A stretch of 64,000 nt of DNA, taken from the NCBI GenBank assembly GCA_947652115.1, contig OX393573.1:11133981-11197980 (forward strand), written 5' to 3'. Each line of letters opens with the position of its first letter. Position 1 is the first letter of the stretch. Below are positions 46,467 to 61,331 of the stretch, one piece after another. The position numbers and the translations under genes are program-made. The notes beneath the pieces are model-generated. The model saw only the letters and a list, made by a program, of their open reading frames with translations. It did not search any database and was not told where the DNA came from. Source of the DNA: Blastomussa wellsi (lineage: Eukaryota > Cnidaria > Anthozoa > Scleractinia > Plerogyridae).

Positions 46467-47536
46467 TATCGTTTGAAATGTAACGTGACGATGGTCGTGC
46501 CTTCACCCAACGTTGCCAAAGGTCCGTTTGTCTCAGCCACTTGCGTTTCGATAATGTCCAGCTCTTCCTTGCGCACGGGAATATATTGAATGTGAAGCGG
46601 TTCGAAGTATGCGTTACCTTCTCCGCTTCTTTTGTAGTTGACTTCACGCAACAGATCTGTCACTTGATTTCCCACCACGGAACTCTGCGCCACATCCGAG
46701 TAGACAAACAGCGATCTCATTGACGTTCCTGCCACATTTTGATACGCCTTGTTCAAATTGACGAATCGCCAATCGCAATAAACGGACAAGAAAAGCATGG
46801 GACCATCGTTCTGGTCTCCTCGTTTATCTTCTTTTACAATCCACAATTTGAAGTCTACTGATCTATCGTATCTGTTGTATCCGGGAAAAACATCCCATTG
46901 ACGTCTGTCAGAAGGTGCTTTAGGAATCTTGTCATCGGGAAATTCCATCAAAAGATTAGGTCCAAGCTGTTGTTCATCTTCACTCAACCAACCCATTTTC
47001 TTGGCAAGTAATGTATTGATCTTGAATGCGGGTAGGGCTCCCACCTTTGAAGTTCCCTCGTTTGCGATGATCAATTCGTCATTATTCCACTTGAACTTTA
47101 TGTAATTGCGTTTTCCTTCTCTTTCTTCCAAATAACTGCTTCCTAACAGTGGACCACCGTAGCCTGTTATTCTTTTCTGATCGTAAAAATTCACCATACT
47201 TTTCATGAATTCTACACCGTTTACTTTGGAGAACACATTGTTCAAATCGGTGATGTTCGATTTACTCTCACCGTAGGTGTATAGAACGGTACGACCTGTT
47301 CCCTTGTTATCTCTGATCCATTCGTACTTGAACAGGATGGTATTTGGATCATCCGTGACAGAAGGAATGACCAGTTGGTTGTCAGGCAACGATATACTAC
47401 TCAATCCCACTTTCCATCCTTCACCCAATCGAATGGGAGTTGGTAATCGCACTTTGAAACTGTTGTTTGTATTGTTTGGAAATTCTTTGCGACTGCTGTC
47501 ATTGGGCAACGTCAAGTAGAACTCTTCAGTCGTCAT
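46466..47536 (-). CDS. Penton-like minor capsid protein, paralogue 1, 356 aa
   Basis: The N terminus (FYLTLPNDSS, FPNNTNNSFKVRLP, GWKVGLSSISLP) and the C-terminal STVVTLHFK-type ending match a family that I recall as the Polinton/adintovirus minor capsid (single jelly-roll, penton-like) protein. It would form the five-fold vertices. The gene upstream is a clear paralogue with the same start and end blocks, and the two overlap by 11 nt. Confidence 0.75.
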   Translation of the reverse strand: MTTEEFYLTLPNDSSRKEFPNNTNNSFKVRLPTPIRLGEGWKVGLSSISLPDNQLVIPSVTDDPNTILFKYEWIRDNKGTGRTVLYTYGESKSNITDLNNVFSKVNGVEFMKSMVNFYDQKRITGYGGPLLGSSYLEEREGKRNYIKFKWNNDELIIANEGTSKVGALPAFKINTLLAKKMGWLSEDEQQLGPNLLMEFPDDKIPKAPSDRRQWDVFPGYNRYDRSVDFKLWIVKEDKRGDQNDGPMLFLSVYCDWRFVNLNKAYQNVAGTSMRSLFVYSDVAQSSVVGNQVTDLLREVNYKRSGEGNAYFEPLHIQYIPVRKEELDIIETQVAETNGPLATLGEGTTIVTLHFKR

Positions 47537-48563
47537 ACTTGAAATGTAATGTCACGATCGTACTTCCTTCTTCGAAGTGTACTTCTCTTCCGTCTTCCTC
47601 TTTCACGTCGATTTCGATAATGTCAATGACTTCGTCTCGCACCGGTATATATTGCACGTTTTGCATCTCGTATCCACTTTGAGTCAACGTGTAGGGAATG
47701 TCTCTCAACAAATTAGTGATCTTTACTCCCACCGTGCTGCTCTGGACGGCAGTCGAGTGAACGAAGAGAGGTCTTTGCTGATGTCCGAATGCCCGTTCGT
47801 AACTTTCGTCCAAGTACGAAAACACCCAATTGCAAAAACAACTCAACTGAAGTGCGTCGTTGTCGATTTTGTAAAATTCGTCGTTTCCTTCTATAATGTC
47901 AGTAGCGCCTGGCACCTTATCTGTAGGAAATTCTTTGCGTAAATTGTCTCCCAATTCGTAAACGGGATCACCATTACTATCTGTTTCTTCTTTTACCCAT
48001 CCCATGTCTTTGGCCAATTGATATCCCACGAACACTTTTGGGTAATTGTTCGAGTTGCCTCCGAAATACGTGTCGATATTATCCAATACGAATTGGTCTT
48101 TGTCAGCATACATTTGCGTGTAAAGCCTCTTGAATTTCACGATGTCGTTACCATCATCGTCTTGACCTTCTGTCACATCTTGTCCCAATTGAGCATCAGC
48201 AACATTGATGTTTTCTAGATTCCAATAGTACAATCTCTTGATGGCTGTCATAAATTGCGTGCCGTTGGTGATGTTGGAATTGAACTTGTTCAACACATCT
48301 TCAGTGATGAGGAGTCGTTGTTCTGTATAAACTTCGTCGTCCTCGTCTTCCAACAAGTCCCATTCGAACCGAAACAAGAAGGGATCCTTGATTAGGACAT
48401 GGGGTGGTGCTTTTGGTACGTGAATACTAGTCATACCCACTTTCCATCCTGATTCCTTGAAACGCAACGGGTAAGGCAATCGATTCTTGAAGTGATTGGA
48501 TTGATTGTCTGGGAATTCCACGCGGTTCGATCGACTAGTGAGTCTCAGATAAAATTCCCTCAT
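47526..48563 (-). CDS. Penton-like minor capsid protein, paralogue 2, 345 aa
   Basis: It shares with the downstream gene the blocks FYLRLTS, EFPDNQSNHFKNRLPYPLRF, GWKVGMTSIHVP, the AKDMGW step, VQSSTVGVKITNLLRD, YIPVRDEVIDIIEI and the terminal STIVTLHFK. Identity over the middle is low, so the duplication is old. It may form a heteromeric vertex or serve a different position, for example a fibre-base role. The start is in an ATGA overlap with the integrase stop. Confidence 0.75.
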   Translation of the reverse strand: MREFYLRLTSRSNRVEFPDNQSNHFKNRLPYPLRFKESGWKVGMTSIHVPKAPPHVLIKDPFLFRFEWDLLEDEDDEVYTEQRLLITEDVLNKFNSNITNGTQFMTAIKRLYYWNLENINVADAQLGQDVTEGQDDDGNDIVKFKRLYTQMYADKDQFVLDNIDTYFGGNSNNYPKVFVGYQLAKDMGWVKEETDSNGDPVYELGDNLRKEFPTDKVPGATDIIEGNDEFYKIDNDALQLSCFCNWVFSYLDESYERAFGHQQRPLFVHSTAVQSSTVGVKITNLLRDIPYTLTQSGYEMQNVQYIPVRDEVIDIIEIDVKEEDGREVHFEEGSTIVTLHFKYDD

Positions 48564-49660
48564 AGCGATTCAAGAGCGGAACGTTCGATCCAACTGTTAT
48601 ACTTCTCTGGCCATCCTTTCCATTCAACCAACACTTTAGTACCTTTTCGTTTCAATATTTTTTCGACTCGAAACAGATCTTCGTCGTCTTGCAGGACTTT
48701 TTGCAATTCTTCCTTGTAAAATGTTCCTTTGAGAGGCGTTCCGTCGTATTCGTTGATCTTGTAGGTGGTGACGGGTGGACCTGGTCTGACATCACTCACG
48801 ACGAAAATTTCTTCGGTCCAGCCTGGCAAATAACTTTTCTTGAACGTACGGAATTTTTTGTTGAGTCGTACCTTATCACCCACTTTCAACAAAGTACGTC
48901 GTTTGGGTTTTTTGCCTTGCAATTTCTTGGCATACAAATTCATCCACACTTCGTGTTCGTTTTTCTTGTTGACTCGGTTTGGAGCCATGCCGATACTTCT
49001 ATGAAACGACGCATTGTATCCCTTCACCAAAGCGGGAAGTGCAGACATGTAATTCAATGTGTTTTTGACGGTGAAATAACGATACATGCGTTCCTTGAAG
49101 GTACGATTGAATCGTTCCGCAATACTGGCTTTCGTGTCACCTGCCGTCGAAAAATGATTGATCTTCTTTCGTTTCATCAATTCAGCAAAGGTCTTGTTGT
49201 AAAATTCCTTTCCATCATCGGTTTGTAAATTCTGAGGTGTACGTCCTTTGGCGCGTTTCAGGATTTTTTCAAAAGCTTCCGTCACCGATTTCCCCGTCTT
49301 GTTTTTCACGGGTTCTATCCAAGCGTATTTGGACAACACGTCCAAAACGATCAGCAGGTAACGGTTACCTTTGTTTTGTTTGGCCAAGGTTTGCACTTCC
49401 ACCAAATCAGCTACCCATTGTTGATCGATATTGAACACCAAGACGGGAGAAGTAGTGTATCGTCTTCTTCTGGGTTTATGAAGCGTGTATCCCAATTCTC
49501 TTTCCAAGAGTTTCTTGACTCTGTTGACAGGTAATTTCTGAGCCTTGGCAAATCGTTCAATACCTCCCAAACTACCAGGTTCGGTAGGATCGCGGTAATC
49601 TTTCAAGATGCTTTGATCATTTTTCTTCTTCTTCTTCTTCCTTTTACCTTTCAGTGGCAT
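48560..49660 (-). CDS. Retroviral-type integrase with C-terminal chromodomain, 366 aa
   Basis: From the ATG at 49660 (MPLKGK) a Lys-rich start leads to a helical N-terminal domain, then an RNase H-fold core with D84 (WVADL), D147 (QTDDGKEF) and E181 (ASIAERFNR), the D,D,E triad of retroviral-type integrases. A small SH3-like region follows, and then a chromodomain at about 318-362 (FRVEKILKRKGTKVLVEWKGWPEKYNSWI). Chromodomains direct insertion to marked chromatin in related elements. The 6-bp duplication around the element is the expected product. An upstream apparent start is TTG and was not used. Confidence 0.93.
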   Translation of the reverse strand: MPLKGKRKKKKKKNDQSILKDYRDPTEPGSLGGIERFAKAQKLPVNRVKKLLERELGYTLHKPRRRRYTTSPVLVFNIDQQWVADLVEVQTLAKQNKGNRYLLIVLDVLSKYAWIEPVKNKTGKSVTEAFEKILKRAKGRTPQNLQTDDGKEFYNKTFAELMKRKKINHFSTAGDTKASIAERFNRTFKERMYRYFTVKNTLNYMSALPALVKGYNASFHRSIGMAPNRVNKKNEHEVWMNLYAKKLQGKKPKRRTLLKVGDKVRLNKKFRTFKKSYLPGWTEEIFVVSDVRPGPPVTTYKINEYDGTPLKGTFYKEELQKVLQDDEDLFRVEKILKRKGTKVLVEWKGWPEKYNSWIERSALESL

Positions 49661-49934
49661 TGTCGACGGCTTCACGCAGTGCAAAGAAACTGCGTCTCAC
49701 GATTGATAGTCGCATTCTATATATGATGTCGTACCATTCCGTTGCATGTTTCTGTTTTTTCAACCACATCACAAAGGGTACCAATCGAAATGCATTGCAT
49801 GCTACGTCCACCTCGTCAAACAGGTCTAAGGGATTACATTCGATTTCATAGGGTAACTCAATGTTTTCGTCGAATCTCGACCACACTTCATCACACAAAT
49901 CACACACGGTCGTCCACCTAATCTTTTCTTCCAT
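49644..49934 (-). CDS. Small protein with CxxC at the head of the virion block, 96 aa
   Basis: Starting at the ATG at 49934 (MEEKIRW) the protein has VCDLCDEVW near residue 10, a mostly acidic middle and a helical basic end. It is not recognised. It is the promoter-proximal gene of the leftward block, 45 bp from a TATATAAA, and overlaps the integrase start by 17 nt. The TATA-linked start supports it being real. Confidence 0.6.
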   Translation of the reverse strand: MEEKIRWTTVCDLCDEVWSRFDENIELPYEIECNPLDLFDEVDVACNAFRLVPFVMWLKKQKHATEWYDIIYRMRLSIVRRSFFALREAVDNATER

Positions 49935-49978
49935 AACGTAAAGAGTATCCACTGCACTACTCTGTCTTCATCTGATCA

Positions 49979-49986
49979 TTTATATA
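49979..49986 (-). promoter_or_regulatory. TATA box of the leftward virion block
   Basis: TATATAAA on the minus strand, 45 bp upstream of the ATG at 49934. It lies in the 325-bp divergent region that also drives the rightward GRF gene. Confidence 0.65.
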
Positions 49987-50018
49987 TGTTTTGGCTGCGC
50001 ATCACACCGATTTTTTTG

Positions 50019-50072
50019 CCTTATATGGAGTGTTCGCTCTGTACAAAGATCGATTCACAGCACCATATAAGG
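50019..50072. promoter_or_regulatory. Pair of inverted CArG-like boxes
   Basis: CCTTATATGG (50019-50028) and CCATATAAGG (50063-50072) are inverted copies, each matching the CC(A/T)6GG consensus of SRF-type MADS factors, about 34 bp apart in the centre of the divergent promoter. They could equally act as extra TATA-like elements. A tract of ACTGGTTT/AACGGGTTT repeats follows at about 50110-50180. Confidence 0.4.
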
Positions 50073-50215
50073 GGGGACGCAAGTCCAAAGATCATCGCGC
50101 AACTTTGACGTGACTGGTTTCAGTAACTGGTTTTAACGAGTTTTAACGGGTTTAACTGGTTTCAGTAACAGGTTTGACTGCTGGCGTCACTCGATTGTGA
50201 TTGGCCGTTTGGTTT

Positions 50216-50223
50216 TATATAAA
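50216..50223 (+). promoter_or_regulatory. TATA box of the GRF-exonuclease unit
   Basis: TATATAAA 36 bp upstream of the ATG at 50259, preceded by an inverted CCAAT (ATTGG at 50199). Confidence 0.65.
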
Positions 50224-50258
50224 GTGGAACGATTAACATATTGTTCATCACTTCAAGA

Positions 50259-51254
50259 ATGGAGCAAGCAGAGATGCCGGAGATGAAGCAGGAAGAAGAA
50301 CTGACAGACCAAATAAAGTTTTTGCAAAGTGAACAAGGTAATTATATTCATTATCAACCCGGTGACGCATCGCCAATTTTGACTAAAAAAACAAAAAAGT
50401 CAAACCGCGGCAAAAAGAAGAAGAAAGGAGATGAATCTCCCACACGTTACATGTTGCCTAAAGATTTCCCACCTGCTTCCAACAAGAAGAAGAAGAAAAA
50501 GACAAAGAAAGAAGTTGTGGAAGTGATGGAAGAGGGTGAAATACCGTCGTACGATGAAGCCATTGATTTTTTCAACAAGTTCTTTCCACAAGCAGAAGTG
50601 AATTGTCCGATTCACAACAATGTTCCACTTCAAGAAAAAACAGCAAGCAATGGATGGAAGTACCTGGTTTGCGGTGTGGGAAGAGATGATCGTAAAGATC
50701 AATGTTTTGTCTTGGTGGACAAAAACGAAGCCAAAACGTATATCGACATCGTTCGAAATACGAACACTGTGATGACTTACTACTCAAACAACCTGGATAA
50801 ATTGTTGTGTTACTGCGACGAACCAATCATTCTCAGCATCTCCAATTCGACGAAGAATCCAGATCGCCCTTACTTCCGCTGCAGACGAAACATGTGCAGA
50901 TTCTTTCAATGGAGTGATTTGCTGCCAAGAGGAAAAGTCTTGGCTTGGATAGAAGGAGGAAAACGTCATCATGGCAACACCCATTGGTCCAGAGATGAAC
51001 AAGGTTACCCATTGAGAGGACAAGATTCTCCTTGGTATCACAAACCTACCTACACAGATATCAATTCCATTCCTTTTGATCAATCGTTGTGGCTGGAGTG
51101 TCAAAAAGTAAACATTGCGTTTTTGGAACATAATCAAGAGGTGATAAGTCCTCCAGAAATAAAGGGATGTCACTATACCGAAGAGAATGAACCTGCGTTG
51201 AAGAATCAGATTTACATCAAACGTCTGATGAAGAAGCATGGACTAACAGGATGA
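50259..51254 (+). CDS. GRF-type zinc-finger protein, 331 aa
   Basis: After a Lys-rich N-terminal half the protein has a GRF zinc finger at about residues 184-225: LLCYCDEP, then RPYFRCRR, then CRFFQWSD, giving the C-x-C...C...C set with the conserved aromatic/W-D ending. GRF fingers in topoisomerase III, NEIL3 and APE2 bind single-stranded DNA. A weaker Cys/His module (VNCPIHNN ... VCGVG ... DQCFVLV) at about 115-155 may be a second, diverged copy. The gene overlaps the exonuclease-like gene in an ATGA. A role in protecting or handling single-stranded replication intermediates is inferred. Confidence 0.75.
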   Translation: MEQAEMPEMKQEEELTDQIKFLQSEQGNYIHYQPGDASPILTKKTKKSNRGKKKKKGDESPTRYMLPKDFPPASNKKKKKKTKKEVVEVMEEGEIPSYDEAIDFFNKFFPQAEVNCPIHNNVPLQEKTASNGWKYLVCGVGRDDRKDQCFVLVDKNEAKTYIDIVRNTNTVMTYYSNNLDKLLCYCDEPIILSISNSTKNPDRPYFRCRRNMCRFFQWSDLLPRGKVLAWIEGGKRHHGNTHWSRDEQGYPLRGQDSPWYHKPTYTDINSIPFDQSLWLECQKVNIAFLEHNQEVISPPEIKGCHYTEENEPALKNQIYIKRLMKKHGLTG

Positions 51255-51772
51255 AAGAGAAAGTGTGTATGATATTAGACTTGGAGGGATTTTTCGTCAA
51301 CAAGAAATTTCAAGTGCGGGAACTGGGATATTACGCTTGGACAGGAGATCACGGACGATACTCATTTTACGCAAAAGTGCCTTGGTACAATTTATCCAAA
51401 GAAGACAAAAGAACTGTTGCCTTTCAAAAGTATAACATTCACGGACTGACGTACGATCCAATAAAACAAGAAAGAGGATACGAGTCTCACCAGTTGGAAG
51501 AGATATTGATGAATTTGTATCAGAACAACAAATGCAATGAAAGATATGTAATAGCCTACAAAGGAGGACATGTGGAAAAAGATTTGTTGAATAGACTTAA
51601 CATTCAAAGTTTAAACCTTGAAGTGTATAATTGTCCTAAATACGAAATACTAAAATCGAGTGTTGTCGAGCCTTTGCCCGATTGCGGATTTCATTTCAAT
51701 TGTTGTAACACTCATTGCAGCATGGTCGAATGTCATGCTTTTTGGTTATGGATGAACACTTACGTAGAATAA
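51251..51772 (+). CDS. DEDD exonuclease-like protein, 173 aa
   Basis: The start MILDLEGFF places D10 and E12 as in motif I of DEDD (RNase T/epsilon-type) exonucleases. A middle block RYVIAYKGGHVEKDLL fits motif II, and HCSMVECHAFWLW near the end fits the H-x4-[DE] motif III with Glu. C/H-rich residues just before motif III may bind zinc. I recall similar proteins in animal Polinton-type elements. It would trim or degrade nucleic acid during replication, or target host RNA. It starts in the GRF gene's stop (ATGA), and AATAAA (51768-51773) overlaps its own stop. Confidence 0.65.
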   Translation: MKEKVCMILDLEGFFVNKKFQVRELGYYAWTGDHGRYSFYAKVPWYNLSKEDKRTVAFQKYNIHGLTYDPIKQERGYESHQLEEILMNLYQNNKCNERYVIAYKGGHVEKDLLNRLNIQSLNLEVYNCPKYEILKSSVVEPLPDCGFHFNCCNTHCSMVECHAFWLWMNTYVE

Positions 51773-51773
51773 A
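51768..51773 (+). terminator. Poly(A) signal overlapping the exonuclease stop
   Basis: AATAAA spans the TAA stop of the exonuclease-like gene. On the other strand AATAAA lies at 51800-51805 for the convergent leftward unit. Confidence 0.6.
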
Positions 51774-51799
51774 ATCAGACTTTTTTCAAACAACATTGT

Positions 51800-51805
51800 T
51801 TTATT
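51800..51805 (-). terminator. Poly(A) signal of the small leftward unit
   Basis: AATAAA on the minus strand, about 115 bp after the stop at 51918. It is convergent with the signal at 51768-51773. Confidence 0.55.
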
Positions 51806-51917
51806 TACATTTCTCTCACCATACATTTCTTCTAACAATTCACAAAAGTATTCACTATGAGCGAGTGCCACATCACAGATATTTTTTCAATCACACTATC
51901 ATGCATTTACAATGACA

Positions 51918-52202
51918 CTACAAACAAAAAGCCTTCACGAAATCTATACGAGCGAGTGCCGCATCAAGATTCTCACCTAGAAAAATGGTTGCAAACTTCC
52001 ACTCCTCAATATCATAATATTCTCCATATATTGATCCACAGCAAGTCAAGAAAACGCGACCACCCCACTTGGCTCTTATCTTGCCCCATTTTATCTCCTT
52101 CACAAACTTCTCGTGATGAGCGTTGTGCACTCTGTGGATAGGCTTTGTACATGTAGGAGGTTCCTGGCCACAGACTACACAGCATGAAGGCATACAAGAC
52201 AT
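51918..52202 (-). CDS. Small Cys/His-rich protein, possibly an exon, 94 aa
   Basis: From an ATG at 52202 the protein starts MSCMPSCCVVCGQ, with further Cys and a His-rich HRVHNAHHEKF step, so it may bind zinc. Its 5' edge is TTTTATTTCATCAG directly before TCATG, a good acceptor. The final 25 or so bases of its coding end recur in diverged form at about 51858-51880. It may be the third exon of a leftward unit starting at 52859, or an independent small gene. Confidence 0.5.
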   Translation of the reverse strand: MSCMPSCCVVCGQEPPTCTKPIHRVHNAHHEKFVKEIKWGKIRAKWGGRVFLTCCGSIYGEYYDIEEWKFATIFLGENLDAALARIDFVKAFCL

Positions 52203-52283
52203 GACTGATGAAATAAAACAAAAATCAAAATGATAACGCAATAAAATACAGAACAACGGTCGATGAAATAGTTAACTACATGT

Positions 52284-52538
52284 TCACAAAAATGGTTTTC
52301 CATATAAAACAATGTCCGCCTTACGAATGGCGTCACGCAGTTGCCAGAGGCGGTTTTGGTATTCTTCACAACCTCTGGCAACGCGTGCAAGTGAAACAAT
52401 GTTTCTCATCAGTCTCCGCAAAACTTTAACTAGCTTCTTGTGTCTGCTGGTGTGCTGATTTTCTTTATCCTCTACTAACATTCTCTCGCAGGTGACAAGT
52501 CTAACTTTGCTTTCACGAAAAATGTCCACAGGCTCCAT
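52284..52538 (-). CDS. Small helical basic protein, possibly an exon, 84 aa
   Basis: The protein starts MEPVDIF and is almost entirely helical and basic (HKKLVKVLRRLMRNI, NRLWQLRDAIRK). It is preceded by TTTTTTATTTCACTATCAG, a good acceptor, 25 bp before the ATG. No family is recognised. It lies between two similar small genes in the leftward unit. Confidence 0.5.
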   Translation of the reverse strand: MEPVDIFRESKVRLVTCERMLVEDKENQHTSRHKKLVKVLRRLMRNIVSLARVARGCEEYQNRLWQLRDAIRKADIVLYGKPFL

Positions 52539-52595
52539 GACTCACGAAATACTCAAAGGACAACTGATAGTGAAATAAAAAACAAAAAATGTAGA

Positions 52596-52859
52596 TCAAG
52601 GATCTAATTTATCAAACGTCTCTGACCATCTTAGCAAGTCGATCCACAAGGAACGCACTTCAGTTTCATCTGCAGTTGCATCCCAGGATAATTGCAGTAT
52701 CCTGTCAAGAAACCAGGGGCCATCTTCTATTAACTCTACCATTTGTAAATAAGTTTCACCTTTACAATTTTCTTTGTGCGCTTCCAACTTTGCAGACATC
52801 AACGTGGTAGCCTCTTCGTAGGTGTCCAGCAACAGTTGCTTCTCTATTCTCTCGCTCAT
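52596..52859 (-). CDS. Small helical protein at the head of a leftward unit, 87 aa
   Basis: It starts MSERIEKQLLLDTYEE and is acidic and helical, with Trp-containing segments near the end (DGPWFLDRILQLSWD, RSLWIDLLRWSETF). A TATATAAG on the minus strand lies 36 bp upstream (52895-52902), back-to-back with the locus 2 promoter. Function unknown. Stop is followed at once by a polypyrimidine run and CAG, the same layout as in the alternative-exon loci. Confidence 0.6.
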   Translation of the reverse strand: MSERIEKQLLLDTYEEATTLMSAKLEAHKENCKGETYLQMVELIEDGPWFLDRILQLSWDATADETEVRSLWIDLLRWSETFDKLDP

Positions 52860-52894
52860 CTTTAAAGGGTAACTGATGGTGTGGGATGGAAAGC

Positions 52895-52902
52895 CTTATA
52901 TA
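52895..52902 (-). promoter_or_regulatory. TATA box of the small leftward unit
   Basis: TATATAAG on the minus strand upstream of the ATG at 52859. With the plus-strand module at 52917-52999 it makes a compact divergent promoter, mirroring the arrangement at 38137-38254. Confidence 0.6.
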
Positions 52903-52916
52903 CATTCAAAACAGGT

Positions 52917-52999
52917 CACGTGACAGCAATTGTATGGGGATGGGGGGGTATCCCCCCTTTTCATCAACCAATCAGGAACCAGCTCATGGCCTATATAAG
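52917..52999 (+). promoter_or_regulatory. Promoter of alternative-exon locus 2 (shared module)
   Basis: In order: CACGTG (52917-52922), G-run/TAT/C-run palindrome (about 52942-52957), CCAATCAGGAACCAGCTC (52968-52985) and TATATAAG (52992-52999). The parts, order and spacing match 38169-38254. The ATG of the leader exon is at 53044. Confidence 0.8.
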
Positions 53000-53043
53000 A
53001 AACTCACTTGCAGCGTTTGCTTCATTCTCAAGTTCGACACAAG

Positions 53044-53136
53044 ATGGGAAGCAACGATGAGAGAGAAAAGTTATGGAGGAAGAAAGGGCCGATGCAATGG
53101 GAGTTTCTTGGAGAAGAAAAAGAAACAGAAGAAGAG
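53044..53136 (+). CDS. Locus 2 common leader exon, 31 codons
   Basis: This exon begins MGSNDEREK, is highly charged, and ends GAG|GTAAGA at 53136/53137, an excellent donor in phase 0. Eight bodies are in frame with it: the read-through form and seven downstream exons, the last being the DNA polymerase. It is the only ATG-led sequence behind the locus 2 promoter that can feed them. A nearby TTG-led extension upstream was rejected because 53044 is the first ATG after the TATA box. Confidence 0.75.
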
Positions 53137-53733
53137 GTAAGAAGTCATTGGGATGTATTGCCAGAAGAAATCAAAGAAAAGATACAATGGGCAAGTGTAG
53201 AAATGCATGTACGGGAACGATCGAACACTCCTTACGAGATTAAAAAGCTAGAAGTAAATGAAGATAATCATTATCTCCATCTGCCTGTGACTTTGGCCTT
53301 TCAACACTACACATGCATGAAAACTGTCATGTTAGACAAGAGCAAAACAGAATTTGGAACTTGGGAATTAATTCATTTATTCTTGGATCCTTGCGAAAGT
53401 TGCGATTCATTCCTCTCTCGTTACGAAGAAAAAACAAATGAAACGGGACAAATTGTAAATCAAGGAACATTGTATGGTGATGGTGATTCGGATCGAATTC
53501 CTTTCGTGAAAACGGATGAAAACAATGAACGATGGTTTCATCAAGAATGTATAATGCATGATCACCCTGACAAACATGGACATTGTTGTCTGTGTTCAAC
53601 ACATTTCGATCCGGAAAAGGCATGCGATGACAAACGTCACTTCTTCCCGTATCCCAGAGATGAAAAGTACAATGAAATCAAAAAGTTACCGTTTTGCGAT
53701 GAAGGTAAATTGGTTGTTCATTTTCTTGTTTGA
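53044..53733 (+). CDS. Locus 2 read-through form: F-box-like/zinc protein, 229 aa
   Basis: If the donor at 53137 is not used, translation runs on into VRSHWDVLPEEIKEKIQW, an F-box-like motif (LP-x-E-hydrophobic-x3-I), then a body with DPCESCDSF (C-x2-C) and, about 50 residues later, RWFHQECIM (H-x2-C), followed by an extra CCLC-containing region. F-box motifs bind Skp1 and link substrates to cullin ubiquitin ligases. The motif match is short, so the F-box call is tentative. The same motif order recurs at the start of the next exons, which supports homology. Confidence 0.65.
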   Translation: MGSNDEREKLWRKKGPMQWEFLGEEKETEEEVRSHWDVLPEEIKEKIQWASVEMHVRERSNTPYEIKKLEVNEDNHYLHLPVTLAFQHYTCMKTVMLDKSKTEFGTWELIHLFLDPCESCDSFLSRYEEKTNETGQIVNQGTLYGDGDSDRIPFVKTDENNERWFHQECIMHDHPDKHGHCCLCSTHFDPEKACDDKRHFFPYPRDEKYNEIKKLPFCDEGKLVVHFLV

Positions 53734-53746
53734 AATTTCATGGCAG

Positions 53747-54187
53747 ATAATCAGTCATTGGGACATTCTTCCCGTAGAAATACAGCAAAAGATACAATGG
53801 AAAGCGGATCGTTTGATGATTGAGACAAAACGTTATCGTAATTTCAAGTATTGGTTCAACTTGAAAGTTGTATTGGATCAATGTTGTCATTGCGGATTCT
53901 TCATAGACATGAAACATCGCATGAATGAAGAAGGAAATTACAAAAACAGATTCTTATTTCAAAAAAGTCACATTTGGGACTTTGATCGTTTACCTTCTCG
54001 CATGATTGAACAGAGTGGGGAAAAATTAACGTCGTGGAAACAATACATTCGTACCGTGACCGTGGGAGAACGCGTAACATTTTACGACGAAGGATTATGG
54101 ATACACCCAGATTGCATTATACCCTATCACATTTCTATTCGCAGGGAATGGGAGTCAACCCATGGGATCGATTACCAGACGAACTGA
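53747..54187 (+). CDS. Locus 2 alternative terminal exon a (F-box-like/zinc), 146 codons
   Basis: The acceptor TTTCATGGCAG|A lies 13 bp after the read-through stop. Phase 0 continues with IISHWDILPVEIQQKIQW, then CCHCGFFIDMKHRMNEEGNY and later WIHPDCII. It has no ATG before the F-box-like motif, so the motif is translated only if spliced. It ends at 54187, 43 nt beyond the acceptor of exon b. Confidence 0.65.
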   Translation: MISHWDILPVEIQQKIQWKADRLMIETKRYRNFKYWFNLKVVLDQCCHCGFFIDMKHRMNEEGNYKNRFLFQKSHIWDFDRLPSRMIEQSGEKLTSWKQYIRTVTVGERVTFYDEGLWIHPDCIIPYHISIRREWESTHGIDYQTN

Positions 54188-54543
54188 AACGAATCATACA
54201 GCGACAAGCTGATGAAATCATGATCAATATCATTCACCATTCACCTTATTGGCCAACTTTGTTCAATTACTTGGAACCTTGTATTTATTGTCATAGTTTC
54301 ATATACTATGATTCAATGGAAAAACCTTCGTCATATCTATGGTTAAAATCGCGTTTACCTTGGCACTATTACACAACGGATGGAAGATATGTATCTGCAT
54401 TTTACGTTGACAGAATCGAAAACGATGTATCTGCATTTTACGTTAACAGAATTGAAAACAAAAACAGAATGAAACCAGAACCAAGATGGATCCATTGCTA
54501 TTGCATTGGAAATCACTTTCTATGCTCAAACTTTTCACAGTGA
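54145..54543 (+). CDS. Locus 2 alternative terminal exon b (F-box-like/zinc), 132 codons
   Basis: The acceptor TTTCTATTCGCAG|G precedes 54145. The exon begins GMGVNPWDRLPDELKRIIQ, then PCIYCHSFIYY and WIHCYCIGN. A 36-bp tandem duplication (54388-54423 and 54424-54459) repeats VSAFYV and RIEN. It is strongly similar to exon c, including the acceptor, so the pair arose by a recent tandem duplication. Confidence 0.65.
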   Translation, partial: GMGVNPWDRLPDELKRIIQRQADEIMINIIHHSPYWPTLFNYLEPCIYCHSFIYYDSMEKPSSYLWLKSRLPWHYYTTDGRYVSAFYVDRIENDVSAFYVNRIENKNRMKPEPRWIHCYCIGNHFLCSNFSQ

Positions 54544-54561
54544 TCACATTTCTGTTCGCAG

Positions 54562-54978
54562 GAAGCGGGAGTAAATCCATGGGATCGATTACCAGACGAA
54601 CTGAAACGAATCATACAACGAAAAGCCGATCAAATCATGATCAATATCATTCACCATTTACCTTATTGGAATGCTTTGGATTCGATCTTGGACCCTTGTA
54701 TTCATTGTAACACTTTCATTCACACTTGCGGCTCGAGTTACTGGCCGCCGTCTCTATGGTACAAATGCACTTTACCTTGCTACTATTTCGAAAATGATGG
54801 TGACGTGAACGAATTTTACATTGACAAATTCAAACAAGTAGACTTACAACGCACAAGAGAAGTACTGAAAAATCATTCTGAATCAAAATGGATTCATTTG
54901 TATTGCATCGGAAATTACCTTTTATCCTTTCCAGTAGAAAAAAGACCAAGATTAAAAAGAATGTTTCCTATCTTTTAA
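54562..54978 (+). CDS. Locus 2 alternative terminal exon c (F-box-like/zinc), 138 codons
   Basis: The acceptor TTTCTGTTCGCAG|G precedes 54562. The exon begins EAGVNPWDRLPDELKRIIQ, then PCIHCNTFIH and WIHLYCIGN. It lacks the 36-bp duplication of exon b and has a longer basic end. Its TAA (54976-54978) lies inside the acceptor tract of exon d. Confidence 0.65.
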   Translation, partial: EAGVNPWDRLPDELKRIIQRKADQIMINIIHHLPYWNALDSILDPCIHCNTFIHTCGSSYWPPSLWYKCTLPCYYFENDGDVNEFYIDKFKQVDLQRTREVLKNHSESKWIHLYCIGNYLLSFPVEKRPRLKRMFPIF

Positions 54979-54981
54979 CAG

Positions 54982-55380
54982 ATGAGTCTATGGGATTTTC
55001 TACCGGAAGAGATAAAACTAAAGATTTTGTGGATGGCTGATAAAATGGAACGCAAATTGGAACATAGAAGATTCAGGCAATATTTAAGAAACTATACGAA
55101 ACCATGTGCCACGTGCGGTTTGTTCTTGGACATGAATCAACGAATGAACAAAAGGGGAGACATCTACGGTTCACCGCGCAATATCCTTGATTTCGAACGC
55201 ATGCCTAACATAAAGAATGAATTCGGTAAAGAAGATTGGCATCACTACGAATGCGTGAAAGATCGTTTTCATCCCATGGTGCAACATTACTTCGAACGTT
55301 ATAAACAATATCATTACAAACAAAAGAAGCAAAATAAAAAAAGAAGGAAACTCATATTCACCACGGCTTTCTCTGATTGA
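54982..55380 (+). CDS. Locus 2 alternative terminal exon d (F-box-like/zinc), 132 codons
   Basis: The acceptor CTATCTTTTAACAG|A precedes 54982. The exon begins MSLWDFLPEEIKLKILW, so it could also be translated from its own ATG, then PCATCGLFLDMNQRMNKRGD and WHHYECVK. The tail is Lys-rich. The DMNxRMNxxGD block is shared with exons a and g. Confidence 0.65.
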   Translation: MSLWDFLPEEIKLKILWMADKMERKLEHRRFRQYLRNYTKPCATCGLFLDMNQRMNKRGDIYGSPRNILDFERMPNIKNEFGKEDWHHYECVKDRFHPMVQHYFERYKQYHYKQKKQNKKRRKLIFTTAFSD

Positions 55381-55403
55381 CTTTTTTTTCGGTCTTTTTG
55401 CAG

Positions 55404-55757
55404 AGTCATTGGAATTTTCTGCCAGAAGAAATGAAACGAAAAATTCAATGGCTTTCGGACAAATCGCATGTGGAAGACAAACTCGAATACAACCATGGAT
55501 TTTGGTTCAAGTTTCACTTACGATTATTTCCTTGTCGACTTTGCGGTCACTTCGTGAACACGAGAGACAGATTAGAACCGTCAGGGAACTTCAAACAAGA
55601 GGATGCATACCCTGTGATCTGTAGGATAGCTCATCAGACATTCAACAATCCGTATATAGATCAATGGGATTATCGGCATGGACTAACGGATGAGGGTTAC
55701 CTTTTTTTATTAATAATGAGTCCTCCCTTTGAACACAAGTGTTTTGATTGCAGATAA
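55404..55757 (+). CDS. Locus 2 alternative terminal exon e (F-box-like/zinc), 117 codons
   Basis: The acceptor CGGTCTTTTTGCAG|A precedes 55404. The exon begins SHWNFLPEEMKRKIQW, then PCRLCGHFVNTRDRLEPSGN and a C-terminal HKCFDC. The distal zinc pair is arranged differently from its neighbours. The stop TAA (55755-55757) is formed by the first bases of exon f. Confidence 0.65.
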   Translation, partial: SHWNFLPEEMKRKIQWLSDKSHVEDKLEYNHGFWFKFHLRLFPCRLCGHFVNTRDRLEPSGNFKQEDAYPVICRIAHQTFNNPYIDQWDYRHGLTDEGYLFLLIMSPPFEHKCFDCR

Positions 55758-56098
55758 AGAGTCACTGGGATGTATTACCGGAAGAATTGAAAAGATACAT
55801 TCAATGGCAGGCAGACATCATGCATGTCAAAGACAAACTCAATTACAACAATCAGATTTGGAAATCATTTCATTTTTGGTTTATGGGTCGATGTATATAT
55901 TGCGATTGTTACCTGAACATGAAAAACAAAATAGACGCAGAAGGCAATTACAAGTGCGAATCAGAAAAAATATGGAAAAAAAGACAATGGGTAGACAACA
56001 AAGAATGGGAAGCAGTATTCAGTGTATATGACGATCCTCCCACAACAAAACATTACTTTCAACATTGCGATTGTGTATTGTTTTCTCCGCACAGATGA
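55754..56098 (+). CDS. Locus 2 alternative terminal exon f (F-box-like/zinc), 114 codons
   Basis: The acceptor GTTTTGATTGCAG|A precedes 55754. The exon begins IKSHWDVLPEELKRYIQWQ, then RCIYCDCYLNMKNKIDAEGN and HCDCVLF. It is closest to exon g at its start. The stop TGA (56096-56098) overlaps the first bases of exon g. Confidence 0.65.
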   Translation: MKSHWDVLPEELKRYIQWQADIMHVKDKLNYNNQIWKSFHFWFMGRCIYCDCYLNMKNKIDAEGNYKCESEKIWKKRQWVDNKEWEAVFSVYDDPPTTKHYFQHCDCVLFSPHR

Positions 56099-56394
56099 AG
56101 AGTCACTGGGATGCATTACCAGAAGAATTAAAAAGATACATTCAATGGCAGGCAGATCTCATGCACGTAAAAGAGAAAAAGAAAGTGTGGTCAAAAACAT
56201 TGAACACTTTCAGTTATTGTCGACGTTGCAATTTTTTTCTGGAAATGAGACACAGGCTTTGGAAAAATGGAGACATACGAGGAAACCCCACATTTATAGA
56301 CAACACATGGCGAATACCAACCATGTGTCATGTAAATCCAAGTCAATCAGATTGGCATCACAATTATTGTTGTCTTGACATGATTGCAGATTGA
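56095..56394 (+). CDS. Locus 2 alternative terminal exon g (F-box-like/zinc), 99 codons
   Basis: The acceptor TTTTCTCCGCACAG|A precedes 56095. The exon begins MKSHWDALPEELKRYIQWQ, then YCRRCNFFLEMRHRLWKNGD and WHHNYCC. It starts with ATG, so independent translation is possible. The stop TGA (56392-56394) overlaps the first bases of the polymerase exon. Confidence 0.65.
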   Translation: MKSHWDALPEELKRYIQWQADLMHVKEKKKVWSKTLNTFSYCRRCNFFLEMRHRLWKNGDIRGNPTFIDNTWRIPTMCHVNPSQSDWHHNYCCLDMIAD

Positions 56395-59300
56395 TGACGA
56401 AACCATGATCGAGGCGGCAAGTGAATGGGAACGCGGATTTGATTTCATTTTGACTCCACACGTGGACAGACGATTGAGACGATTTGATTTACATCACAGA
56501 AGTTACACGGCGCGATTGGCACAGCGCGGTGGTGCATTGGTCAACTTGGACAGAGCCGTATTGCCGGGACAAATCGAGGATGCCTTGCAACGCAGCATCA
56601 ACGAACAAATATTAGAAGACTCAGAAGTACGACCCGACGATCATTTGTTGATTAACATCAACTCGAACAGACTGAGAAACGCTTATCATTCAAGACGAGT
56701 GCGAGTGCGTGATTGGAGAAACAATGCATTGATTGCTCGCACCGTTTTGGAAGAATTAAGCAGACTGTTGAACTCCAACGAAAATTTCAGAATGGATGAT
56801 ACGTTTAACTTGAACATTTCTCACATAAAAGCCACCGGGACGGGAAGCGGACGAAAAAAACTGGGAACGAAGCACATTGAGAAACTCTTGAACGACAAAA
56901 AGTCAGTGATCAAAATCAAAAACACGGACGAACTGTGTTGTGCCAGAGCTTTGGTCACCATCAAAGCTTACCGCGATCTAGGTAGTAGACACAGTACCTA
57001 CAATACTTTGCGAAGGGGAAGATCAATGCAAGAACGACAAGCCAAAGAATTACACGCCTCGGCCAAAGTACCCGAAGGACCCTGCGGCTTGACTGAAATT
57101 CTACAATTTCAGACTTACCTGAAAGAGTACCAGATCGTAGTGGTTTCCGTGGATCACGGTTACCAATTCATTTTCAAGGGGCCGGACCAACCCGAAGATA
57201 AACTACTTGTCTTAATCAAAGTGGGAGAACATCACCATGCGTGCAACTCGCTGAAAGGATTCTTTGGCAAAGCCCATTTCTGTCTAGCGTGCGAAAAATC
57301 CTTCGAGCGTGACAAATGGAGAAATCACAGATGTAAAGGAAAGCGATGTCATGCCTGTCATCAATTGAATTGCCCAGATTTCACCAAAGTCGACAAAGGT
57401 ACCAAAGCCATAGTTCCTTGCAACGATTGTGACCGCTCGTTCTTCGGAGACGCGTGTTTTGCTCTGCATAAGAAACAACAAGAAGAAAGCGGGAAAAAAG
57501 TGGAAAAAAACACCAAGAACAGCGTTTGTCACATGCATAAGAAATGTAAGAATTGTAGCAAGACACTGACCAATTACGAAATGGACATAGGCAAACACGT
57601 GTGCGGCTACAGCCAATGCCCTTCCTGCAAACGATACTTGAACTTGTATCAACACACATGTTTCATTCAGAACCCAAACGAAATGGAAGAAAAAAGAAAA
57701 AAGAGAAAGAGAAAAGCGGACGACACTCAACCAGAAGAACCTCCCATTTTTGTGACTTGGGATGCCGAAGCCATGCAAGAAAGAGGAATTCACGTACCCA
57801 ATTTGATTTGTGCCATGACCTCGAACAGTAACTTGCAACACAAGTTTGAGGGTTCGACATGTGTGACAGACTTTCTCGACTGGTTACGAGAAATAGCCAT
57901 CGACAATAAAGTCATTGCCATTGCTCACAATTTCAAAGGGTACGATTCCTACTTCATTTTGAACGAACTATACCGTCAAGGCATCTGTCCGGATCAATTG
58001 GTAAACGGAAGCAAGATTTTGTCGATGAAAGTTCACGACATCGAATTCAAGGACTCGATGTGTTTTCTTCAGATGCCGCTTTCTGCCTTCCCAAAATCAT
58101 TTGGACTGACGGAACAGAAAAAAGGGTTTTTCCCTCATTTCTTCAACATTCCAGACAACCAATCGTACGTGGGTCCCATTCCGGCACGCGATTATTACGA
58201 CCCGGGAGGTATGAAACCAGAAAGAAAAACAGAATTTGACGAATGGTACAAAAAAATGAAAGAGGAGAATCACCTGTTTGATTTCCAGGCGGAACTGTTG
58301 GCCTATTGCCAATCGGATGTGAAATTGTTACACGACGGATGTAAGGTGTTTCGACAACAATTCAAACAAGTGGCCGGATTCGATCCCATGGAAAAATGTT
58401 TGACCATCGCCTCGGCTTGTAACCTGTACTATCGCACAACATGCATGCCCAATAACTGTTTGGCTTCGGAACCAGTGCGGGGTTGGCACGGAAAAGGAAA
58501 ACCTCACTCCCAGGCTTCCATCGAATGGTTACATTACTTGAACCGCAATGCTACATCGACAGACCGTGTGACGCATGCCAGAAACGGTGGAGAACACGTG
58601 ATCCGTGTGGGCAACAGACGAGTTCACGTAGACGGGTACGCGGCGTCCACCAATACCGTGTATGAATTCTACGGTTGCTTCTATCACGGTTGCCCCACTT
58701 GTTTTCCAAACCGATACCAGAAACACACCAAACTGGACGAACGTACCATGCACGACGTGCACGAAACCACGCAACGTCGAGCCGATCAGATCCGACACGC
58801 AGGTTACAATCTCATGGAAATATGGGAATGCCAATGGAACAATCTCAAAAAACGAGACACGGAAATTCAAACCTACCTGAAATCTTTAAACTTGACGGAA
58901 CGACTAGAGCCCAGAGATGCCTTTTTCGGGGGTAGAACCAATGCGGTCAAACTTCATCACAAGACGCAAGAGGGTGAAAAGATCCATTACGTGGATTTCA
59001 CGTCACTCTATCCCTACGTCAACAAAAACTGCGTTTACCCCATAGGACATCCCGTCATCGTGCTAGAACCAGGGCACACAGATCTATCCGAGTTTTTCGG
59101 GCTTGCCAAATGCACTGTGTCACCACCCTACGGGTTATACCACGCCGTCTTACCCTATCGCAGCGGCGGAAAACTGACCTTCCCGTTATGCCGCACCTGC
59201 GTAGAAACGGAACAATCCAAACCCTTAACAGAACGCAGCGCAAGTTGCAGCCACACGCTCAAAGAAAGGGAACTAACCGGTACTTGGTGCACCCCTGAAT

Positions 59301-60352
59301 TGGAAGAAGCAGTGCGTCAAGGCTACGTGATCCAACACGTGCACGAAGTGTGGCATTTTCAAAACACGTCCGACACGTTGTTCAAATCGTACGTGAACAC
59401 TTTCCTGAAAATCAAGCAAGAAGCCAGCGGGTGGCCAAAACGGGTCGGGAACGACACCGACAAACGCGTGAAATACATCACGGACTATGAGAAAAAGGAA
59501 GGAATCAAATTAGAACCCGACAAGATAGAAGAAAATCCGGGAAAACGATCTCTAGCCAAAATGATGCTCAACTCTTTCTGGGGAAAGTACGGGCAACAAA
59601 GTAACAAGACTCAAGTTCAAACGTACACCAGTCCGGCCCTATTCCACAAGTTATTGGAAGACGACAGCAAGGAAATAAATGACATCCGCATCGTAAATGA
59701 GGAAATGATCGAAGTCGTACACAAGTATCAAAGCGAGTGTGACCCCATTCAAGTAAACATAAACATTTTCGTGGCTTGCTTCACCACTTGCTGGGCAAGA
59801 CTACGATTGTATCAAGAAGGTCTCTCAAAACTGAATCCTCTACAGACTTTGTACTTTGACACTGACTCCATCATTTATTCCCACAAAGGAAATGAACCCA
59901 GTTTACCATTGGGTGATTTCCTGGGAGAATACACAGACGAATTGAAAGACCCGGATGATCACATTGTAGAATTCGCTGCTGCAGGACCCAAGAATTACGG
60001 GTACCGAACCATGAAGGGAAAAGTAGAATGTAAGGTGCGTGGCTTCTCGCTGAACACACGCGGACAAGAACAGTTAAACTTTGAAATCCTAAAAGAAAAC
60101 GTCATGGATGAAGTGACAAAACCTTTGGAGGAAAAACAACGGCAGATTCCCGTCTTCAATCCATTCAAGATCACAAGAGACAATAAAACCAAACATTTAG
60201 AAACAATGACCGAAATAAAACGTTACCAAATCGTTTTCGACAAACGAGTAGTGGATCCCATCACGTTTCACTCTTACCCATATGGCTATCACGAAGAATT
60301 CGAATGGAATGAACAAGATGAACTCAATTTGCAAAGTTTATTGCTTTTTTAA
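56390..60352 (+). CDS. Protein-primed B-family DNA polymerase (locus 2 last exon), 1320 codons
   Basis: This copies the element's genome from a protein primer. Exonuclease motifs are WDAEAM (about 57758), HNFKGYDS (about 57925) and YCQSDVKLL (about 58302). Polymerase motifs are DFTSLYPYV (about 58994), KMMLNSFWGKYG (about 59558) and YFDTDSIIYS (about 59853). Zinc-type Cys/His clusters lie at about 57285-57665 and a GCFYHGCPTC block near 58675. The length is typical. The exon begins at an acceptor (GATTGCAG|A, 56389/56390) in phase 0 with the leader at 53044. The first in-frame ATG inside it is 56405, so unspliced initiation is an alternative. No TATA box lies just upstream. An AQRGGA near the N terminus could be a protease site. 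Confidence 0.92.
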   Translation: MDDETMIEAASEWERGFDFILTPHVDRRLRRFDLHHRSYTARLAQRGGALVNLDRAVLPGQIEDALQRSINEQILEDSEVRPDDHLLININSNRLRNAYHSRRVRVRDWRNNALIARTVLEELSRLLNSNENFRMDDTFNLNISHIKATGTGSGRKKLGTKHIEKLLNDKKSVIKIKNTDELCCARALVTIKAYRDLGSRHSTYNTLRRGRSMQERQAKELHASAKVPEGPCGLTEILQFQTYLKEYQIVVVSVDHGYQFIFKGPDQPEDKLLVLIKVGEHHHACNSLKGFFGKAHFCLACEKSFERDKWRNHRCKGKRCHACHQLNCPDFTKVDKGTKAIVPCNDCDRSFFGDACFALHKKQQEESGKKVEKNTKNSVCHMHKKCKNCSKTLTNYEMDIGKHVCGYSQCPSCKRYLNLYQHTCFIQNPNEMEEKRKKRKRKADDTQPEEPPIFVTWDAEAMQERGIHVPNLICAMTSNSNLQHKFEGSTCVTDFLDWLREIAIDNKVIAIAHNFKGYDSYFILNELYRQGICPDQLVNGSKILSMKVHDIEFKDSMCFLQMPLSAFPKSFGLTEQKKGFFPHFFNIPDNQSYVGPIPARDYYDPGGMKPERKTEFDEWYKKMKEENHLFDFQAELLAYCQSDVKLLHDGCKVFRQQFKQVAGFDPMEKCLTIASACNLYYRTTCMPNNCLASEPVRGWHGKGKPHSQASIEWLHYLNRNATSTDRVTHARNGGEHVIRVGNRRVHVDGYAASTNTVYEFYGCFYHGCPTCFPNRYQKHTKLDERTMHDVHETTQRRADQIRHAGYNLMEIWECQWNNLKKRDTEIQTYLKSLNLTERLEPRDAFFGGRTNAVKLHHKTQEGEKIHYVDFTSLYPYVNKNCVYPIGHPVIVLEPGHTDLSEFFGLAKCTVSPPYGLYHAVLPYRSGGKLTFPLCRTCVETEQSKPLTERSASCSHTLKERELTGTWCTPELEEAVRQGYVIQHVHEVWHFQNTSDTLFKSYVNTFLKIKQEASGWPKRVGNDTDKRVKYITDYEKKEGIKLEPDKIEENPGKRSLAKMMLNSFWGKYGQQSNKTQVQTYTSPALFHKLLEDDSKEINDIRIVNEEMIEVVHKYQSECDPIQVNINIFVACFTTCWARLRLYQEGLSKLNPLQTLYFDTDSIIYSHKGNEPSLPLGDFLGEYTDELKDPDDHIVEFAAAGPKNYGYRTMKGKVECKVRGFSLNTRGQEQLNFEILKENVMDEVTKPLEEKQRQIPVFNPFKITRDNKTKHLETMTEIKRYQIVFDKRVVDPITFHSYPYGYHEEFEWNEQDELNLQSLLLF

Positions 60353-60604
60353 TGACTCCTTCAGCACATTCAGATCATACTTTCCACTGTTGAAACCATC
60401 CACCAAGAAGTTATGGAAAGCTCCATCTCTGATACGCCTTTCACCACGGTTTCCTGCATGTGTCAAAGAATGACAGCGGGGCAGTTCCACTTTACCATCT
60501 TCTTGCAAAGAATACACAAAGGTGTGCACGCCAAAGAGTTCATCCAGAGTCTTAAAGAACTTGTCCCATCGTCTGCATTGGTAGGACTTGGCATATTTCT
60601 TCAT
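60338..60604 (-). CDS. Small leftward ORF overlapping the polymerase 3' end, 88 aa
   Basis: The protein starts MKKYAKSYQCRRWDKFFK and later has THAGNRGERRI and FLVDGF, an order that loosely resembles the THARNGGE ... VDGY segment of the polymerase here (about 58570-58640). It may be a diverged or captured fragment of a second polymerase, or chance. The frame stays open upstream of the ATG to about 60650. It overlaps the polymerase end by 15 nt on the opposite strand. Confidence 0.4.
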   Translation of the reverse strand: MKKYAKSYQCRRWDKFFKTLDELFGVHTFVYSLQEDGKVELPRCHSLTHAGNRGERRIRDGAFHNFLVDGFNSGKYDLNVLKESLKKQ

Positions 60605-60652
60605 GTCCTTGATGTGAGAAAAGTGTAGGTTGTAGATGTTGAGCTTCGTGAT

Positions 60653-60844
60653 TTAGTTTCTTCTCTTCCCAGTGAAGCCATTCAACCACTGACATTCCCA
60701 CGTTACCAGCTTTTTTGCGTGACATGTAACGTCGGTAAAATGACCTGTCTTGCTCTTCTTCGTCGTCATTGATAAAGACTTCTTTCTTCTTCTTTCCTCG
60801 TCTTCGCTTTCATCATCATCACTGTCTTCAACAATCCACCACAT
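60653..60844 (-). CDS. Small acidic leftward ORF, 63 aa
   Basis: It starts MWWIVEDSDDDESEDEE and then becomes basic. The downstream half overlaps a stray piece of terminal-repeat sequence (about 60704-60728), so that part is probably not conserved protein. No TATA box was seen. It may be an exon joined to 60338-60604, but no convincing splice pair was found. Confidence 0.3.
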   Translation of the reverse strand: MWWIVEDSDDDESEDEERRRKKSLSMTTKKSKTGHFTDVTCHAKKLVTWECQWLNGFTGKRRN

Positions 60845-60848
60845 GCTG

Positions 60849-60885
60849 GCGTTCAGAGTCTGATGGAGAGTATGGAAAACGCAAG
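60849..60885 (-). repeat. Inverted 37-bp copy of a left-end gene segment
   Basis: This matches 37243-37279, within the acidic protein gene, in inverted orientation with two differences. It lies about 100 bp inside the present right terminal repeat, as the left copy lies about 130 bp inside the left one, so it probably marks a formerly longer terminal repeat. Confidence 0.6.
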
Positions 60886-60981
60886 AAAAAAACAGTGGTT
60901 GGTCTTTTGATTTTGTAGACGCAGAAGACAACAATAGTAAACATGGAATGTAATTTTCAAGTTGTCTTAACTCGTCATTGA

Positions 60982-61331
60982 ACTCGTCATTGAACTCGTT
61001 ACTAGTTATTGAACTCGTTATTGAACTCGTCATCGAACTCGTTACCAGTTTTTTTTGCGTGACATGTATTGCGTGAAATGTATTGCATGACATTGAACTC
61101 GTTATTGAACTCGTTACCAGCTTTTTTTGCGTGACATGTATCTTGTGTGACCATTAAAAAATTTTGAATTCAAATACTGTCTCCTGATTGGTTCATGACC
61201 TTGTGACGTTTTTGCTGACGCAATTCGCGGTTTAGAAAAGTCACGTGTTCCATATGCGGCCTCCTGATTGGTCCATTCAAAAAATACTCGATTCTGATTG
61301 GTTGTGCCCCAAAGTATAGGCACTTACTACT
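60982..61331 (-). repeat. Right terminal inverted repeat
   Basis: This is the inverted copy of 36764-37113. The inner GTTATTGAACTC/GTCATTGAACTC array extends to about 60969. A further isolated piece of terminal-repeat sequence (GTTACCAGCTTTTTTGCGTG) sits inside at about 60704-60728. Confidence 0.9.

Follow-up and report, generated by a model that had tools for sequence, protein, structure and literature searches.

Can one short coding exon supply the start codon for a whole row of small paralogous proteins and also for the DNA polymerase encoded behind them? The question is raised by a locus in the genome of the stony coral Blastomussa wellsi (contig OX393573.1, positions 11,133,981 to 11,197,980 of the forward strand; this stretch of 64,000 nucleotides is referred to below as the window, and positions are numbered within it), where a Polinton/Maverick-type element carries a 31-codon leader exon, an array of eight related reading frames, which we call bodies 0 to 7, and a family B DNA polymerase (PolB). 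The original prediction, made from the letters of the window, proposed a splice-choice cassette with PolB as its last target, and this proposal finds support in splice sites and a reading phase kept across about 30 copies, as well as in a second family of elements. Judging from these sequence features, we consider it very likely that a single coding leader is used with alternative 3′ splice-site choice and that PolB is among the exons chosen.

The leader opens with a start codon and runs in phase 0 into a donor that obtains the top score of all GTs in 52951-60360 (splice-site weights, here and below, form a simple hand-made score, untrained). The eight acceptors behind it (exon starts 53747 to 56390 in Table 1) all continue this phase to their own stops. 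Among the 161 AGs in 53137-56500 they rank 1, 3, 6, 7, 13, 16, 20 and 23, those at 55404 and 54982 being excellent, and all eight thus fall within the top 23 (hypergeometric 5e-8, for a threshold fixed after the fact as the score of the weakest of the eight). Precisely these eight of the 23 qualifying AGs are followed by at least 90 codons open in phase 0; the other 15 are not. The V-R-S-H-W-D with which body 0 begins directly behind the leader aligns with the I-K-S-H-W-D of body 6 and the M-K-S-H-W-D of body 7, and the donor and the acceptors therefore lie at the same point of one repeated unit. On re-reading the window, the leader, its GTAAGA donor in phase 0, the coordinates, the separate stops and the LPxE-hydrophobic-x3-I motif at the start of the bodies were all as first described. 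The array of bodies followed by PolB also stands, but the count of products was off by one: there are eight LPxE bodies (one read-through and seven spliced) plus PolB, that is, eight splice targets and nine C-termini.

Table 1. Positions in the window of the cassette components and of the element that contains them; a slash marks the predicted splice junction.
Feature	Position	Strand	Basis
Polinton/Maverick-type element, whole (24,568 bp)	36764..61331	.	inverted terminal repeats, target duplication, integrase and PolB profiles
TATATAAG box upstream of leader	52992..52999	+	sole TATATAAG among TATAWAW matches scanned
Leader exon with start codon, 31 codons (MGSNDEREKLWRKKGPMQWEFLGEEKETEEE), ending in phase 0	53044..53136	+	reading frame; conservation among copies
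5′ splice site GAG/GTAAGA, putative common donor	53137..53142	+	rank 1 of 322 GTs
Body 0, putative read-through (intron-retained) form, 198 codons	53137..53733	+	VRSHWDVLPEEIKEKI aligns with other bodies
Body 1, putative alternative 3′ exon, acceptor ggcag/ATAATC	53747..54187	+	frame, copies
Body 2, putative alternative 3′ exon, acceptor cgcag/GGAATG	54145..54543	+	frame, copies
Body 3, putative alternative 3′ exon, acceptor cgcag/GAAGCG	54562..54978	+	frame, copies
Body 4, putative alternative 3′ exon, acceptor aacag/ATGAGT	54982..55380	+	frame, copies
Body 5, putative alternative 3′ exon, acceptor tgcag/AGTCAT, without upstream in-frame ATG	55404..55757	+	acceptor rank 1 of 161
Body 6, putative alternative 3′ exon, acceptor tgcag/ATAAAG; first bases overlap body 5 stop	55754..56098	+	frame, copies
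Body 7, putative alternative 3′ exon, acceptor cacag/ATGAAG; first bases overlap body 6 stop	56095..56394	+	lowest body dN/dS, 0.31
PolB exon, acceptor tgcag/ATTGATGACGAA; first bases overlap body 7 stop; first own ATG 56405	56390..60352	+	DNA_pol_B_2 match

TATAWAW has two matches on the + strand in 52400-60500, the TATATAAG box ahead of the leader, which is present in most other leader copies, and a TATATAT at 55894 within body 6. Between the bodies we found one AATAAA poly(A) signal (55333, ahead of the body 4 stop) and ATTAAA at 53239, 54951 and 56127, and because these signals are so sparse a common 3′ end of the transcripts is assumed. As many as 101 ATGs intervene between 53020 and the first ATG of PolB, so that ribosome scanning on an unspliced RNA is expected to fail at PolB. 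Serial splicing through several bodies was considered and rejected: the second-ranking GTs are a tie between 60035 in PolB and 53705 in body 0, use of the latter would leave phase 1, and every body is closed by a stop.

The arrangement is repeated across the genome. Leader copies were found in at least 40 places at 83-100% identity (45 candidates, 40 scored), and the donor GAG/GTAAGA is intact in all 34 that were read out of the 40 listed; GTAAG also follows the leader in two copies outside this list, L022 and L073. Relative to the window, leader differences in 12 copies fall on codon positions 1, 2 and 3 in a ratio of 3/14/31, giving a ratio of nonsynonymous to synonymous substitution rates (dN/dS) of about 0.18, a value limited as proof of coding use by differences shared through descent. 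At the other end of the array, all 25 loci that reach PolB carry gcag/ATTGATGA with codons for [DE]-[DE]-[TN]-M behind it (23 identified by pattern, L066 and L070 by reading; the other three of the 28 scanned stop short of PolB), and in every one of the 25 the exon starts with I-D-[DE]-[DE]-[TN]-M.

For the bodies themselves, we surveyed the window and 28 further loci, which together hold 188 body motifs, or 164 downstream starts once 24 read-through bodies are left out. In 163 of the 164, an AG lies in phase in the preceding 24 nt and the frame is open from there to the motif; the exception keeps the AG, which is then followed by a stop. Plain AGs of any score occur in this stretch at 164, 116 and 49 of the 164 starts (phase 0, then the other two phases) and are weak evidence because they are common in all three phases, whereas well-scored AGs are found in phase 0 at 160 of the 164 starts (other phases 1 and 2), which is strong evidence. 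An upstream in-frame ATG is lacking in 24/24 bodies of the 55404 type, 16/17 of the 55754 type and 20/24 of the 54562 type, as well as in 16/25 of the 53747 type, 13/28 of the 56095 type and none of the 54145 (0/21) and 54982 (0/24) types. Copies with both leader and PolB have 6 to 9 bodies, body 0 included, and the decayed copy L070 has 4; where bodies are extra (L018, L020) or lost (L013, L019), acceptor and phase are kept. The array very likely gains and loses bodies by unequal recombination among repeats, each of which has its own acceptor and stop. dN/dS of the bodies against the window ranges from 0.31 to 0.88, counted without correction for shared descent and with some rows that represent short cross-matches or broken copies. 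In one further place (L068, G000:C15:11354800-11358800), a leader copy is followed by a body type absent from the window (IQSHWDKLPNEIKIKIQW).

A search of the genome with PolB (986 candidates, 35 scored) returned at least 40 matches: many are 94-100% identical, some 76-91%, and those of a separate family 64%. With body 7 as the query, five places at about 40% identity lay outside this PolB list (among 150 matches listed), and three of them were fetched: L073 is a copy of the first family, and L071 and L072 belong, as decayed copies, to a second Polinton family. A third decayed copy of that second family, L074, was found with a body of L071. In L071 and L074 we observe TATATAAAG, an ATG exon reading MWTKIGPMRW[GE]WTDDGPQPE, a donor GAG/GTAACT, and a body 0 immediately after it (VTSYW[GD]RLPADIRRTIQW); the window leader carries KLWRKKGPMQWEF at the place that matches this second leader, the motif common to both being W-x-K-x-GPM-x-W. 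The bodies of family 2 are of the WDxLPxE type; in L071, and for the most part in L072 and L074, they stand behind a CAG acceptor in phase 0, one L072 body with AAAG being an exception. Ahead of its PolB (L071, L072) lie a long pyrimidine tract and AACAG; the exon opens with an acidic I-E-D/E, and the first ATG of the frame, which is interrupted by stops, comes 21 (L071) or 16 (L072) codons later. The L071 polymerase is 36% identical to that of the window over 319 aa; an open stretch of 226 aa in it is closest to P0042 (58% over 132 aa), with 44% over 117 aa to the window. As far as sequence features go, the cassette plan is common to two PolB clades; it is either ancestral and lost in the nearer 64% family or a module that moved between families.

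In the mechanism that we propose, one transcript would span the array and the host spliceosome would use the predicted sites, joining the single donor to one acceptor per mRNA, for which the seven body exons and the PolB exon would compete; intron retention would be a ninth outcome and yield body 0. The leader AUG would be the first AUG on every mRNA and the leader peptide the common N-terminus of all products. Acceptor strength may set the product ratios, with the strong sites at 54982 and 55404 giving abundant small proteins and the mediocre site at 56390 a scarce polymerase. Since each repeat brings its own acceptor and stop, a newly gained body could be expressed straight away. The N-terminal region of Polinton polymerases has been assigned to the terminal protein (PMC11071308), and, because by our own mapping that region coincides with the beginning of the PolB exon, the leader would stand at the head of the replication-priming protein. 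Many PolB relatives open with a short acidic stretch ahead of a conserved F-[DE]-F motif, and the spliced form would restore such a stretch. Homology of the leader to the N-termini of relatives was tried as proof of the joining and dropped as weak, and annotated Oculina polymerase models were rejected as splice evidence, as P0003 opens with a homologue of 51251-51772 and P0006 and P0009 with their own ATG; by eye, the reading frame at 51251-51772 (+) of the window resembles the N-terminal part of the P0003 gene model. PolB relatives with a named source come from stony corals (Oculina, Porites), save one salamander, and no relatives of the bodies or of PolB were confirmed in IMG/VR.

A number of observations weigh against the proposed cassette. 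No spliced (processed) copy was seen in the genome, GTAAG standing behind 34/34 of the leaders read, and a search for the junction of leader and 55404 gave one match with two mismatches, the same number as the control. Distinct changes among 29 leaders comprise 7 silent and 11 altering ones, two stops included. The leader adds +3.2 bits in a profile of PolB N-termini built from 39 of 78 relatives, a gain that 12 of 200 shuffled leaders reach as well, and over its first 54 codons the PolB exon has a dN/dS of 1.34 (39 altering, 8 silent differences). Family 2 is decayed, one L074 body having CAA for an acceptor and its PolB frame an early stop, and no leader was found in L072. The bodies, whether of one family or of both, have no match at an expect value (E) of up to 1 among 5.8 billion predicted proteins. 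The polypyrimidine-AG acceptors originally read before each segment are real as regards an AG in phase 0, but their strengths vary, those of PolB (56390), 53747 and 55754 being mediocre (ranks 16, 20 and 23). Similarly, the statement that most bodies have no ATG before their motif applies in the window to three of the seven spliced ones (54562, 55404 and 55754) and was too strong for the rest: for body 53747, the only ATGs are those of the unspliced frame upstream that overlaps it, and 54145, 54982 and 56095 have an in-exon ATG before the motif and could be translated without the leader.

Part of this would also suit an arrangement in which leader splicing serves the bodies only and PolB is made from its own ATG at 56405, via an internal promoter or a separate transcript. 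That ATG lies only five codons into the exon, the pyrimidine tract of its acceptor is mediocre, and in the 64% family, where four loci were read (L025-L028), there is neither leader nor bodies and PolB starts at its own ATG (other element genes precede PolB on the same strand in L025 and L027). We regard it as improbable, as the PolB acceptor is kept in every locus that reaches PolB, no TATAWAW match lies on the + strand near 56300, the acidic exon start of family 2 stands well ahead of the first ATG and behind a long pyrimidine tract, and, as a weaker point, splicing restores the acidic stretch of the relatives. That the bodies are clearly tandem paralogues, three of them with in-exon ATGs, might instead suggest duplicated independent genes with promoters and starts of their own, their AGs being leftovers of the duplicated unit; yet the three body types that mostly lack an upstream in-frame ATG keep their N-terminal motif, there is a single TATATAAG box, and exons 6, 7 and PolB each start on the preceding stop, leaving no intergenic room for promoters, which makes such genes extremely unlikely. 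Very unlikely, too, is a real gene of leader and PolB whose intron is filled with decaying, functionless bodies. The number of bodies does vary, some copies have broken ones (30 of 207 body starts in 33 sequences stay open for fewer than 75 codons), and the dN/dS of body 5 is 0.88; against this, 177 of the 207 stay open over 75 codons or more, counted from the motif, W..LPxE and CxxC are invariant across the eight window bodies, the dN/dS of body 7 is 0.31, and the same body family occupies the same place in family 2.

The eight bodies in the window have in common W..LPxE...I, CxxC and a later W, and six of them keep a WxHxxC that we take to be reminiscent of treble-clef zinc fingers such as the PARP type; they are perhaps small zinc-binding proteins. 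The earlier F-box-like label is to be abandoned, and 'adaptor' is at most a tentative one: Pfam, PDB sequences and structure prediction with AlphaFold2 (AF2) and Foldseek all gave no firm match, and among the matches listed up to E 10 an F-box profile appears for none of the 8 bodies (with filters that drop most matches above about 0.1). A first AF2 model, of body 0, reached a mean predicted local distance difference test score (pLDDT) of 50; a 132-residue body model (mean pLDDT 73, predicted template modelling score 0.46) has one long helix at 9-39 and not the three-helix F-box. Foldseek returned weak LIM/PHD/RING-like matches to the body model and none with the body models at E up to 0.001. 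The C-terminal part of body 0 (53500-53645, +) matches THAP weakly, at an E of 0.002 that falls below the cut-off.

By analogy, the closest mechanism appears to be the splicing of adenovirus E2B and E4, and the cassette would join both ideas. Adenovirids are known for alternative splicing; their pTP and AdPol have in common a short first exon that holds the start codon, and most of their E4 reading frames begin at ATGs of their own, behind a leader that is non-coding. E4 differs in that it contains no polymerase, whereas the leader proposed here would provide both start codon and N-terminus. The likeness to E2B is a protein-primed DNA polymerase expressed via splicing, which here is a prediction: splice sites and phase fit an E2B-type start codon in a short exon joined to a polymerase body. 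E2B yields two products by alternative splicing, pTP and AdPol (PMC9499273), its mRNAs being expected to be rare, with only two full-length ones found (PMC7851563), compared with nine products here, and it has no tandem array of small paralogous bodies. Adenovirids also have a separate terminal protein, whereas in our element the terminal-protein region seems fused to PolB; a coral Polinton member with a detached terminal protein has been described (PMC11071308). Polintons/Mavericks and adintoviruses share with the element a polymerase, an integrase, terminal repeats and a 6-bp target duplication. Intact vertebrate Mavericks were reported to have no introns (PMC8097293, consistent with older work that this paper cites), a reported trait rather than a defining one, which the intron predicted in the PolB unit would break. 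Cryptophyte Polinton-like viruses do have introns (PMC12220804), but these are self-splicing group I introns, unlike the GT-AG choice among many exons proposed here. Among the papers listed on Polintons or adintoviruses together with splicing or introns (the main adintovirus paper not covered), we found no spliced cassette of this kind, and the splicing passages of PMC11071296 concern other matters.

If true, our reading would show this splicing strategy outside adenovirids, of which Polintons have been proposed as the source (PMC11071308), with one spliced start exon feeding a polymerase and eight paralogous proteins, and would offer a compact virus a simple route to accessory genes without new promoters or start codons. 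We lean slightly towards a broader view, in which some animal Polintons carry a bank of plug-in exons that can be expanded: a single start exon would tag the priming polymerase and a growing accessory set, each duplication adding acceptor, frame and stop, and the plan, present in two polymerase clades, would be to Polintons what E2/E4 splicing is to adenoviruses, and perhaps the forerunner of the latter. Gene calls based on ATGs would truncate such polymerases at the N-terminus and overlook many of the small proteins, the oversight being suggested by the failure of the bodies to match anything among the predicted proteins searched.

The surrounding locus is a Polinton/Maverick, as judged by its PolB, its retroviral-type integrase, its inverted terminal repeats and its target duplication, and looks intact. 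The repeats are 367 nt long (36764-37130 and 60965-61331), 98% alike and identical in their outermost 22 bases, and GTTGTT flanks the element on both sides as the 6-bp duplication. PolB matches the DNA_pol_B_2 profile (family B, viral/organellar type) at E 1.1e-38 and the integrase matches rve at E 2.2e-13, both above the cut-off, with a chromo-like tail (E 6e-5) just below its own. An adenain-type protease (Peptidase_C5, E 6e-4) and a packaging ATPase (Pox_A32, E 2e-4) are weak matches just under the curated cut-offs. A 461-aa open reading frame (ORF) at the place expected for the capsid has no match in Pfam at 0.01, in PHROG at 0.1 or, with an E better than 0.12, in the PDB, and the pair of ORFs at 46466-48563 matches nothing in Pfam or PHROG. 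Also within the element, the 251-aa ORF at 38285-39037 (+) has, by eye, a RING-like Cys/His pattern near its start, with no Pfam match at E up to 0.01. Outside the element, the ORFs at 16506-16923 and 19236-19758 (-) form two near-identical pairs, which suggest a local duplication.

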